Below, piece by piece: positions 60,790-64,000 of a stretch of DNA of 64,000 nucleotides. The stretch covers positions 6,014,001-6,078,000 of the forward strand of contig NZ_CP027706.1 in assembly GCF_003850565.1 (NCBI RefSeq), read 5' to 3'. The notes below the pieces were generated by a model. The model had not been told where the DNA came from. It worked only from the letters and a program-made list of their open reading frames with translations, and searched no databases. Within the stretch, counting starts at the first letter, position 1; the number at the start of each line of letters is the position of its first letter. The DNA comes from Pseudomonas sessilinigenes (GTDB taxonomy: Bacteria; Pseudomonadota; Gammaproteobacteria; Pseudomonadales; Pseudomonadaceae). Made by a program: the position numbers and the translations under genes.

Positions 60790-61449
60790 CTACCGGTCGA
60801 TATGGTGGTAGTCGGCGCCCAGGCGTTGCGCCAGTTCCCGGGCGCGACCGAGGCGGATCGGGCTGCGTTCGATATCCAGCAACAGGGTTGGACAATGCAG
60901 AGGGGCGACCGACGGCAAGGTTTTCAGGCGCCCGTCGGTGATCAGCAACACCCGCTGCTGCTCCGCCGGCCAGCGCCGTTGCCGCTGCTCCAACCACTGC
61001 CGGGCCTCGGCCAGGGCCTGGGGCAATGGCGTACCACCGCCGGCGCCCAGGCCATCGAGCCAGTGGCGCAGGTCCTTGGAAGCCTTGAGCCCCTGGACCT
61101 GCCAGCGGGGCGCACGACCGCTGGCGGTGAGCAAGGCCAGGCGCGCCCGTTGCCGGTAGGCATCGTCGAACAGTTGCGCCAGCAGGCCCTTGGCATCGCT
61201 CAGGGCATGGTGCCGGCGTGTCGAGGCCGAGGCGTCGACGATTACCAGCCACAACTCATGGGGCGTGCGACTGCGCAGTTGCCACAACAGGTCCTCGACC
61301 ACGCGTGGGCGGCCCTTGAGCAAGGTGCCGGGCCAGTTGATGCGACCGCAACTCGCCGCCCGGCTGCGGCCTTGTCGTCCCTGGTCCAGGCGCCCCGGCC
61401 GGGGCTTGGCATCCGCCCCCAGGCCAGAGCGGGAACGGATGCCTAGGGC
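60790..61449 (-). CDS. chlD: ChlD-type VWA part, read in the -1 frame after chlI
   Basis: A von Willebrand A domain with the MIDAS motif DASAS, GAGGGTPLPQAL and LLITDGR, as in the medium subunit of magnesium/cobalt chelatase. The frame is open from 61449 with recognisable ChlD linker sequence (GLGADAKPRPGRLDQGRQGRS) but has no ATG, GTG or TTG until 61323, well inside the conserved part. The preceding chlI frame ends in CCA AAA AAG CCC TAG, and a -1 slip on A AAA AAG leads exactly into this frame. The joined product would be 554 residues. The AAA+ and VWA fusion is the normal ChlD form. Confidence 0.85.
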   Translation of the reverse strand, partial: ALGIRSRSGLGADAKPRPGRLDQGRQGRSRAASCGRINWPGTLLKGRPRVVEDLLWQLRSRTPHELWLVIVDASASTRRHHALSDAKGLLAQLFDDAYRQRARLALLTASGRAPRWQVQGLKASKDLRHWLDGLGAGGGTPLPQALAEARQWLEQRQRRWPAEQQRVLLITDGRLKTLPSVAPLHCPTLLLDIERSPIRLGRARELAQRLGADYHHIDR

Positions 61450-61455
61450 TTTTTT
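61408..61455 (-). promoter_or_regulatory. programmed -1 ribosomal frameshift signal
   Basis: The slippery heptamer A AAA AAG (61455-61449) is in frame with chlI, as in dnaX. After CCCTA (5 bases) comes a hairpin at 61443-61408: GGCATCCGTTCCC and GGGGGCGGATGCC form a 13-bp stem (two G-U pairs) with a 10-base loop. The stop of chlI (TAG, 61445-61443) overlaps the foot of the hairpin. Such signals are known in chlD genes. Confidence 0.88.
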
Positions 61456-62453
61456 GGCCAGCTGGGCACTTCGCGCCGGACGCCGGTGGGCAGTGCCTGG
61501 GCCGGCATGTCACCCCATTGGCCCGCGCCTTCGCTGGCCTCGCGCTGCGCCCCGGACTGCTGCGGTACCGGCGACTGGGGCTGCTGCGCCGGTGCGGCAG
61601 GCGCCTGTCCACGGCGATGGCGCAAGGCGAATTCCGCCACCGCGTCGATATCGTCCTCGGTGATGGCCGAAGCGCCACGCCAGGCGGCATGGGCCCGGGC
61701 GGCCCGCAACCAGACCAGGTCGGCACGCAGGCCATCGACCCCGGCAGCGAAGCAACGCTCGGTGATCTGCGCCAGGGCCTGGTCATCCAGGGCGATACCT
61801 TCCAGCAGCGTCCGCGCCTGCTGGCAGCGCTGGCGCAGTTCGGCCTGGGCCTGGGCCCATTGGTTGCAGAACCCCTGCGGGTCGCTATCGAAATCCAGGC
61901 GCCGGCGGATGATCTGCCCGCGTTCCTGGGGCAGGACCTGGCCGCTCAAGGCCACGTTGAGACCGAAGCGGTCCAGCAGTTGCGGGCGCAACTCGCCCTC
62001 CTCCGGGTTCATGGTGCCGATCAGCACGAACTTCGCCGAATGCCGATGGGAAATGCCATCGCGCTCGATGAGGTTGGTGCCACTGGCCGCCACGTCCAGC
62101 AGCAAGTCCACCAGATGGTCGGGCAGCAGGTTGACCTCATCGACATACAACACCCCGCCGTCGGCCTTGGCCAGAACGCCCGGGGAGAACTGCGCCCGCC
62201 CCTCGCCCAGGGCTGCATCCAGGTCCAGGGTACCCACCAGCCGCTCTTCGCTGGCCCCCAGGGGCAAGGTGACGAACTGCCCGCTGGCCAGCAAATCCGC
62301 CAGTCCCCGGGCGAGGGTCGACTTGGCCATGCCCCGTGGCCCCTCGATCAACACGCCACCGATCTTCGGGTCGATGGCGGTCAGGCACAGGGCCAGCTTC
62401 AAGGCATCGGCGCCGACCACGGCCGACAAGGGGAAATGCGGGGTGTCGCTCAT
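61443..62453 (-). CDS. chlI: ChlI-type AAA+ chelatase subunit (0-frame product)
   Basis: 336 residues: Walker A GPRGMAKS, Walker B VLYVDEVNLLPDH, sensor 1 IGTMNPEEGELRPQLLDRFG with the arginine finger region. A Pro/Gln-rich linker (about 280-310) leads to the stop. By family, in cobalamin producers lacking cobST, the AAA+ subunit drives cobalt insertion by CobN. Ordinary translation gives this protein; frameshifting gives the ChlI-ChlD fusion. It lies 241 bases downstream of cobN, with a MITE-like element between. Confidence 0.9.
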   Translation of the reverse strand: MSDTPHFPLSAVVGADALKLALCLTAIDPKIGGVLIEGPRGMAKSTLARGLADLLASGQFVTLPLGASEERLVGTLDLDAALGEGRAQFSPGVLAKADGGVLYVDEVNLLPDHLVDLLLDVAASGTNLIERDGISHRHSAKFVLIGTMNPEEGELRPQLLDRFGLNVALSGQVLPQERGQIIRRRLDFDSDPQGFCNQWAQAQAELRQRCQQARTLLEGIALDDQALAQITERCFAAGVDGLRADLVWLRAARAHAAWRGASAITEDDIDAVAEFALRHRRGQAPAAPAQQPQSPVPQQSGAQREASEGAGQWGDMPAQALPTGVRREVPSWPKKP

Positions 62454-62538
62454 CTGGGGTTCTCGCTTGGGTCTGGGTGTCCCGAAGGACGATTTCGCGA
62501 GCCGTCTCGCGATCGAGTGCGCAGCATTCGCCGCCTCA

Positions 62539-62694
62539 GGGCACCTCTAAAAACGTAGGCGAGGCAGTCAGCGCAAGGCAAAAACAGGCGAAAAAGCGCC
62601 GTTTACAAGGGGTCAATGTGTATTTTGACCGGGCTGGCGCACCAGCCTGTTTTTAACGCAGCGATGACAACGCAGGTAGTTTTTAAAGGTGCCC
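62539..62694. mobile_element. 156-bp MITE-like element between cobN and chlI
   Basis: Terminal inverted repeats GGGCACCTCTAAAAAC (left) and GTTTTTAAAGGTGCCC (right) match at 15 of 16 positions. TCA occurs on both outer sides, as a 3-bp target duplication would. Internal AAAAACAGGC and GCCTGTTTTT also pair, so the whole element can fold on itself. It codes for nothing evident. The right TCA is the cobN stop codon. Confidence 0.7.
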
Positions 62695-64000
62695 TCAGGA
62701 GTCTTCTTCTATATCCAGCAGCAGATGCTCCAGGGCCTCGCGATAGGCTCCGGGCTCCTGCCACAGGCCGCGCTGCTGGGCCTCCAGCAAACGCTCGGTC
62801 ATATCGCGCAAGGCGTGGGGATTATGCTGGCGAACGAACTCGCGGGTCGAGTCGTCCAGCAGGTAGGCATCGGCCAGCAAGGCGTACTGGTGGTCGTCGA
62901 TCAGTTCGGTGGTGGCATCGAAGGCGAACAGGTTGTCCAGGGTCGCAGCCATTTCGAAAGCCCCCTTGTAACCGTGGCGCTTGACCCCCTCGATCCATTT
63001 CGGGTTGACCGCCCGGGAACGGATCACCCGGTTGAGCTCTTCCTTGAGGCTGCGGATCTTCGGCAGGTCGGGCTGGCTGTGATCACCGTGGTAGCTGGCG
63101 ACCTTGGCCCCGCCCAGGCTTTCCACCGCCGCCAGCATGCCGCCCTGGAACTGGTAGTAGTCGTTGGAATCCAGCAGGTCGTGCTCGCGGTTGTCCTGGT
63201 TCTGCACCACCGCCTGGACCCGGCCCAGGCGAGCGGCGAACTGCTCGCGGGCGGCGGTGCCTTCATCGCTGCCGCCGTAGGCGTAGCCGCCCCAGTTGAG
63301 GTAGACCTCGGCCAGGTCCTCGCGGCTCTGCCACAACCGGCCATCGATGGCGCCCTGGACCCCGGCACCATAGGCCCCGGGCTTGGCCCCAAAGACCCGC
63401 CAGCCGGCCTGGCGCGCCGCCGCTTCCGGGTCCAGGCCGCTAGCCTGCAAGGCTTCGCGTTCGGCACGGACCCTGGCTGCCAGGGGGTTCATGTCGGCTG
63501 GCTCGTCCAGGGCCGCCACCGCCTGCACCGCCGCGTCGAACAGGCGGATGAGGTTGGCGAAGGCGTCGCGGAAGAACCCGGAAATCCGCAAGGTCACATC
63601 GACCCGGGGCCGATCCAGCAGGCTCAGGGGCAGGATCTCGAAGTCGTCGACCCGCTGACTGCCAGTGGCCCAGACGGGCCGCACGCCCATCAGCGCCATG
63701 GCCTGGGCGATATCGTCGCCACCGGTGCGCATGGTGGCCGTGCCCCAGACCGACAAGCCCAGTTGCAGCAGGTGATCGCCGTGATCCTGCAGGTGGCGCT
63801 CGAGGATCAGGTTGGCCGACTGGAAACCGATGCGCCAGGCAGTGGTGGTGGGCAGGTTGCGCACATCCACCGAATAGAAATTGCGCCCGGTGGGCAGCAC
63901 GTCCAGGCGTCCGCGACTGGGCGCGCCGCTGGGGCCCGCCGGCACGAAGCGGCCTTGCAGGGCATCGAGCAGGCCGCGCATCTCCGCCGGGCCGCAGGCA
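62695..64000 (-). CDS. cobN: cobaltochelatase subunit CobN, C-terminal part, 5' end outside window
   Basis: The last 434 or so residues of CobN; the gene runs off the right edge. Family motifs CGPAEMRGLLDAL, PTGRNFYSVD, and TMRTGGDDIAQAMALMGVRPVW, TLRISGFFRDAFANLI are visible. CobN is the large subunit that inserts Co2+ into hydrogenobyrinic acid a,c-diamide in aerobic B12 synthesis. It is followed on the same strand by chlI/chlD. The stop TGA abuts a MITE-like element. Confidence 0.93.
   Translation of the reverse strand, partial: ACGPAEMRGLLDALQGRFVPAGPSGAPSRGRLDVLPTGRNFYSVDVRNLPTTTAWRIGFQSANLILERHLQDHGDHLLQLGLSVWGTATMRTGGDDIAQAMALMGVRPVWATGSQRVDDFEILPLSLLDRPRVDVTLRISGFFRDAFANLIRLFDAAVQAVAALDEPADMNPLAARVRAEREALQASGLDPEAAARQAGWRVFGAKPGAYGAGVQGAIDGRLWQSREDLAEVYLNWGGYAYGGSDEGTAAREQFAARLGRVQAVVQNQDNREHDLLDSNDYYQFQGGMLAAVESLGGAKVASYHGDHSQPDLPKIRSLKEELNRVIRSRAVNPKWIEGVKRHGYKGAFEMAATLDNLFAFDATTELIDDHQYALLADAYLLDDSTREFVRQHNPHALRDMTERLLEAQQRGLWQEPGAYREALEHLLLDIEEDS

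Follow-up and report, generated by a model that had tools for sequence, protein, structure and literature searches.

Programmed −1 ribosomal frameshifting very probably allows a single gene downstream of cobN in Pseudomonas, chlI, to supply both ChlI and a ChlI-VWA fusion (ChlD) for the aerobic cobalt chelatase. This reading is favoured because the slippery heptamer at the end of chlI is kept in 170 of the 174 Pseudomonadaceae genomes in which the junction can be read, because the −1 frame beyond it bears the mark of coding selection, because silent change is low at the position of a downstream stem, and because that stem recurs in relatives. A single gene would then account for the Pseudomonas DNA beside cobN, which reads as if it encoded ChlI on its own and, separately, a VWA protein that lacks its front part. 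The principle, the gene and the genus are already published, so that the finding is a known one and, as principle, adds nothing to that work; what is added here is a coding test, a comparison of the stem and its coupling to an Asp/Asn exchange, for which we claim priority only within the literature searched.

The chlI gene occupies positions 61443–62453 on the minus strand of the window (the whole 64-kb stretch of DNA that was analysed) and encodes a 336-aa AAA+ ATPase, the presumed small chelatase subunit, whose TAG stop codon lies at 61443–61445. Direct reading of the minus strand gives TGG CCA AAA AAG CCC TAG for the 3′ end of the gene, in agreement with the first-pass annotation, which had recognized there a dnaX-type heptamer, A AAA AAG, in the correct phase for the 0 frame (61455–61449). 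The five-base spacer that follows (CCCTA, 61448–61444) holds the start of the 0-frame stop codon and leads into a stem of 13 pairs, two of them G-U, in which 61443–61431 pairs with 61420–61408 around a 10-base loop (61430–61421), all on the minus strand. The same annotation had described such a 13-bp stem after five bases, and both folding and the comparison of relatives support it; the 55-nt stretch with the stem folds at −36.1 kcal/mol (z −2.84), with one of 200 shuffled sequences equally good. The −1 frame (60790–61455, minus strand) runs from the heptamer through a linker and a VWA domain and is open to a stop codon at 60790–60792, as had been claimed, and the joined product has the predicted 554 aa, of which the −1 frame contributes 219 aa after the KK.

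In profile searches the −1 frame matched the VWA_2 domain (E 1.4e-10), and the 0-frame protein matched the Pfam families AAA_lid_2, AAA_5 and Mg_chelatase and scored 408.6 bits against TIGR02442 and 333.3 bits against TIGR02030 (profiles for ChlI and for a putative cobaltochelatase), both below the curated cut-offs. The 554-aa fusion scored 480.5 bits against TIGR02442, below the cut-off of 779.45, which we counted against the frameshifting explanation. A ChlI-like open frame followed by a VWA open frame in the −1 frame is the layout of fs-chlD genes, the frameshifted chlD genes of cobalamin producers. Note that chance would supply such a heptamer, two copies having been observed in the window against 1.07 expected; it is the phase of the heptamer, its placement beside the stem and its conservation that go beyond chance.

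Conservation of the junction had been proposed as a check of the frameshift and was examined in relatives. A ChlI homologue at E 1e-60 was present in 280 of 298 genomes of the genus and in 84 of 148 genomes of a family sample; loci were read from 177 of 354 matched genomes, and in 174 of these the junction lay on the contig. (Left out of the counts were L169, L175 and L176, whose contigs end before the junction, L066, a second copy of the L014 genome, and L002–L006 and L036, which are other ATPases.) Among the 170 in-phase heptamers, 167 are exactly A6-G and three are longer runs (L101, L088 and L087), and the A-run comprises six A in 169 of the 173 genomes that have a run. The codon that carries the first A varies (CCA, GCA, CTA, ACA, TCA, CAA or AAA) and ends in A in 172 of these 173 genomes, L182 being the exception. 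A conserved in-phase A-rich heptamer, as in fs-chlD genes, is thus present in the relatives read. The 0-frame stop lies one codon past the heptamer in 169 of the 170 genomes. In the remaining one, L106, the usual stop has become CAG, and the 0 frame continues for six more codons to a stop within the stem (KKPQASALD). Seven codons then separate heptamer and stop, so that an immediate stop is not essential.

A sequencing error in the A-run, or a gene in decay, would also produce a broken frame. Frame breaks are a common type of error, and the junction is broken or altered in four of the 174 readable genomes: L180 reads GAAAAG, L182 has A5 and further breaks in its frame, and an intact heptamer follows a broken upstream frame in L170 and L181 (in L181 by a run of N). 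However, an A6-G junction is found in 169 genomes, including L007, a relative with a 98% identical ChlI, and the VWA codons are under strong constraint (pN/pS 0.046; see below). Conservation of this kind refutes error or decay in practice, and we give this explanation a negligible probability.

A second survey covered 80 named loci whose species overlap with those of the first set. The chlI gene ended in A6-G in 64 of them, namely 63 of L191–L256 and L263 (P. benzenivorans), and in A7 in five (Caballeronia, Paraburkholderia and Cupriavidus); three loci end early, and L266 (Litchfieldella) is masked. The record titles of L191–L256 are Pseudomonas with the exception of a Paucimonas MAG, a Pantoea record and a Pseudomonadaceae MAG. 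The Pantoea record (L244, Pantoea sp. Cy-639) has a chlI that is 75% identical to that of the window and a Pseudomonas-type junction, and its genus name may be wrong. In L221 (Pseudomonas koreensis) a TAA 0-frame stop follows AAG immediately, with zero codons between, an arrangement in which it differs from the other Pseudomonas loci listed.

In seven of the 80 loci (two Motiliproteus, two Neptuniibacter, two Psychromonas and one Marinomonas) the VWA domain continues the ChlI frame without any shift. In 16 genomes, namely the seven in-frame ones, masked L266 and eight with the frameshift signal, a search at E 1e-30 gave one ChlI homologue each. For the seven in-frame genomes and L266, a CobS-like gene was detected at 426 to 533 bits in three (below the cut-off of 558.55) and at 21.8 bits in one, and in four there was none. 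Five of these loci, L258 and L259 (Neptuniibacter), L260 and L268 (Psychromonas) and L261 (Marinomonas), thus have ChlD fused in frame. No sign of a frameshift was seen in them, a second ChlI was absent at E 1e-30, and the single 21.8-bit match was the only CobS-like sequence. A dnaX-like slip that would yield a short product from the fused genes found no counterpart, there being no such A-rich heptamer in the part of the sequence output read for L257–L262 and L268 (L266 was masked by N in this search).

If the −1 frame is translated by way of a frameshift, then it should evolve as protein from the heptamer onwards. We compared 297 pairs of at least 80% identity among 129 gapless sequences; the pairs are not independent and their shared ancestry is ignored in the ratios that follow. 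Counting the heptamer as codon 0 of the −1 frame, linker codons 16–43 gave a pN/pS of 0.109 in the −1 frame, and the other two frames gave 2.35 and 2.30 there. Codons 44–72 gave 0.096 and VWA codons 73–150 gave 0.046, both in the −1 frame. Codons 16–43 lie upstream of the first possible start codon of the window. Judged by these ratios, the linker evolves like coding sequence when read in the −1 frame, even though no start codon precedes it in the window. Silent change, moreover, amounts to a pS of 0.087 in the stem region versus 0.319 in the linker, so that, by this measure, it is restrained where the stem lies.

These ratios bear on internal initiation, according to which a separate VWA protein would be made from a TTG or GTG inside the −1 frame. 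The first-pass annotation was mistaken in stating that the VWA protein has no start codon of its own before its conserved region: the −1 frame of the window holds TTG at codon 44 (61323), GTG at codon 51 and TTG at codon 56, all ahead of the metal-binding motif of the VWA domain (DASAS, codon 73) and of the VWA core. The VWA profile match, furthermore, starts at residue 55 of the scanned piece, and a protein begun at TTG 61323 would contain all of it. These starts are not conserved, however; in 22 of the 153 loci where the metal-binding motif can be recognised, no such start lies more than eight codons ahead of it. (The start-codon survey also left out L090, L051 and L063, and the 3-aa frame that it returned for L088 is an artefact of the fixed offset at an A7 run.) Moreover, selection on the protein acts in the −1 frame already in the part of the linker that precedes the first start, and internal initiation leaves both the heptamer and the stem unexplained. 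We therefore consider internal initiation very improbable. Note that possible starts occur nearer the heptamer in the linker of certain relatives, so that the coding test has most force for loci like that of the window.

Frameshifting could also take place in the transcript. RNA polymerase may add an A within the A6 run and so make an mRNA in which the two frames are fused; an A-run is slippage-prone, and in PMC3711429 the efficiency of E. coli reporters of this gene family grows with the length of the run (10% for A7, 40% for A9 and 63% for A11). The six A seen in 169 of 173 runs, however, fall below the n > 7 that PMC3711429 gives for A-runs in transcriptional slippage. Furthermore, a stem that recurs at a set distance and the reduced silent change at its position point to the ribosome. 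Transcriptional slippage is thus improbable as the source of the fusion. Note that one extra A would give the identical PKKALG peptide, so that mass spectrometry of the KK-ALG junction cannot separate ribosomal from transcriptional slippage.

The first-pass annotation had also suggested looking for the hairpin in homologues, where the stem does recur, with some compensatory change, mostly at one pair. A stem folds at the equivalent position in many relatives, and six or all seven of the outer pairs are preserved, in the register of the window, at 142 of 173 loci. Among the 31 loci that do not, L046, L109, L112, L118, L125 and L067 fold, by eye, stems of other lengths, and L085–L087, L089, L090 and L177–L179 have no clear equivalent. 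Two alignments were examined for covariation, one of all 106 distinct sequences that pass a pairing filter (A2) and one of 51 hand-picked long stems from among them (A1). Pairing is kept in 98.2% of cells in A1, a value doubly biased by the way in which its rows were chosen, when partners slid along the alignment pair in 43 to 53%; the corresponding values for A2 are 85.4% versus 38 to 49%. Four of the 13 pairs vary on both sides in A1. Covariation was 0.170 in A1 as compared with 0.132 in shuffled alignments and 0.122 in A2 as compared with 0.088, and none of 500 shuffles reached the observed value in either case, although these statistics ignore shared ancestry. When further pair types were counted the A1 signal was weaker, 27 of 500 shuffles reaching it. 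Moreover, partners slid by −3 columns in A2 scored 0.123, and the covariation in A2 thus fails to single out the stem and rests mainly on one pair. The downstream RNA structure characteristic of fs-chlD genes is accordingly recognized here by its presence and its pairing, with A2 covariation not above that of one slid control.

The pair in question is formed by columns 11 and 36, which in A2 are C-G in 77, U-A in 15 and U-G in 14 of the 106 sequences and C-A in none; in A1, too, C-G, U-A and U-G are present and C-A never occurs. On a tree of the upstream part of chlI, the 51 sequences show 10 changes among these three states. In the protein, one side of the pair is a silent Ile codon (ATC/ATT), whereas the other side exchanges Asp and Asn. 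RNA pairing therefore appears, from the aligned sequences, to steer an amino acid. It is conceivable, as a long shot, that the stem is a regulated switch, in which Co2+ or a B12 intermediate would alter its stability and so set the ratio of ChlI to ChlD; if this were true, RNA pairing would even dictate protein, as the Asp/Asn swap suggests. (The best match of the stem to a known RNA family was PtaRNA1 at 21.9 bits, with a gathering threshold of 47 and an E value of 0.21, which we took as chance.)

In keeping with a cobalt chelatase, cobN and cobW lie directly upstream of chlI. The 3′ end of cobN, which encodes the large cobaltochelatase subunit, occupies 62695–64000 on the minus strand and extends beyond the window (TIGR02257, 1742.1 bits; cut-off 822.05), and cobW is upstream of cobN (TIGR02475, 532.4 bits; cut-off 332.1). 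The first-pass annotation had reported no separate cobS or cobT in the window, and at the sensitivity of the profile models this holds for the 6.9-Mb genome, in which CobT had no match and CobS had none above its cut-off, the one weak match scoring 28.1 bits against 558.55; the curated cut-offs for CobS and CobT class membership are thus not reached. The genome contains one ChlI homologue at E 5e-222, the next best being at E 7.7e-7, and thus no separate small-subunit gene, as in fs-chlD genomes. The only match in the genome to BchH, the large subunit of the chlorophyll enzyme, was the same CobN at 670.5 bits, below the cut-off of 829. Here again the genome resembles those with fs-chlD, in that cobN is present and the chlorophyll large subunit is absent.

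We propose that one gene downstream of cobN gives rise to two chelatase subunits as follows. Ribosomes that stay in the 0 frame would stop at the TAG one codon past A AAA AAG and release ChlI, the 336-aa AAA+ motor. Other ribosomes would run into the 13-bp stem with one Lys-tRNA on AAA in the P site and another on AAG in the A site; the two tRNAs could then slip back in tandem by one base, from AAA-AAG to AAA-AAA, and −1 reading onward would join ChlI to the VWA domain in a 554-aa product, the medium subunit ChlD. ChlI and ChlD, together with CobN, would form the aerobic cobalt chelatase. The sequences show the anatomy, its conservation, the coding selection and the recurrence of the stem; that slippage happens in this strain, how efficient it is and which role each subunit has, we infer. 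A pattern search for tRNA-Lys gave two exact matches, each carrying the UUU anticodon, and four one-mismatch matches with other anticodons; no tRNA-Lys with anticodon CUU was found with a looser pattern, though either pattern could miss a tRNA whose sequence is unusual. Work on dnaX indicates that reading of AAG by a UUU anticodon favours slippage. Because the heptamer is fixed and the stem recurs, the signal should be directly testable in a reporter.

The signal resembles that of E. coli dnaX in that A AAA AAG is followed by a stem and in that two subunits of one AAA+ machine come from one gene. It differs in that the shifted product is shorter in dnaX (PMC3711429) and longer here, and in that the window is without a strong Shine-Dalgarno-like element. 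The best such stimulator in the window is weak (−2.9 kcal/mol at −20 to −15). Sites below −5 kcal/mol at −20 to −18 occur in 28% of the set versus 7.9% of the background, and also in 21–28% at −34 to −29; we rejected a dnaX-like upstream element, given its weakness in the window and its lack of positional specificity across the set.

Much of this has precedent, and the first-pass annotation was right to call the locus a local instance of a known principle. PMC3711429 (2013) describes a cluster of Mg-chelatase genes that share a −1 frameshift, 23 in number and with Pseudomonas represented. The shift rates of its E. coli reporters, given above, speak for the frameshifting reading, but those reporters carried A11, A9 and A7 runs and not the A6-G of the window, which counts against it. 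PMC5009743, a 2016 review, lists A_AAA_AAR in genera including Pseudomonas and quotes a stem from P. protegens, CTAGGCATCCG...CGGATGCCAAG. It describes the sequence of the stem as 'not strongly conserved' and proposes a triplex and the binding of divalent cations. The quoted stem differs from that of the window in the loop and inner stem; in our family set at least six of the seven outer pairs are retained at 142 of 173 loci. PMC9227772 (2022) attributes the small and medium cobalt chelatase subunits of P. aeruginosa (stage 8 of its table) to a frameshifted chlD. The window agrees with fs-chlD (Antonov et al. 2013; Kuznetsov et al. 2022) in the gene, the genus, the −1 shift at an A-rich heptamer with downstream structure, and the apparent origin of small and medium subunits from one gene beside cobN, and departs from it only in the sequence particular to this strain. 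With CobNST systems, in which cobS and cobT are separate, it shares the adjoining CobN large subunit and differs in that CobT had no match in this genome and CobS stayed below its cut-off. Antonov (2020) is also reported to have described fs-chlD genes. Our literature search found no paper naming PA2942, and among the papers listed on frameshifts in magnesium chelatase genes beside cobN, PMC9227772 is the one that, by its title, deals with this gene.

The gap between cobN and chlI, measurable in 73 of 178 loci, ranges from 1 to 475 bases. In the window it contains a 154-bp element (62540–62693, minus strand) with terminal inverted repeats, GGCACCTTTAAAAA / TTTTTAGAGGTGCC, flanked by a 5-bp CTGAG duplication (62694–62698 and 62535–62539). 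The element is present in L007, and L009 has an empty site; seven other places in the genome match 123–146 bp of it at 81–93% identity, and it is a MITE-like repeat. In L008 and L009 the gap holds a TGTAGGAGCGAGCTTGCTCGCGA-like sequence, which we take to resemble repetitive extragenic palindromes. In L066 (G176), cobN and chlI lie in one open frame of 1582 codons (the ORF from base 1543) in which the A6-G heptamer is conserved; this single genome, which may reflect an assembly error, could make a CobN-ChlI-ChlD polyprotein.
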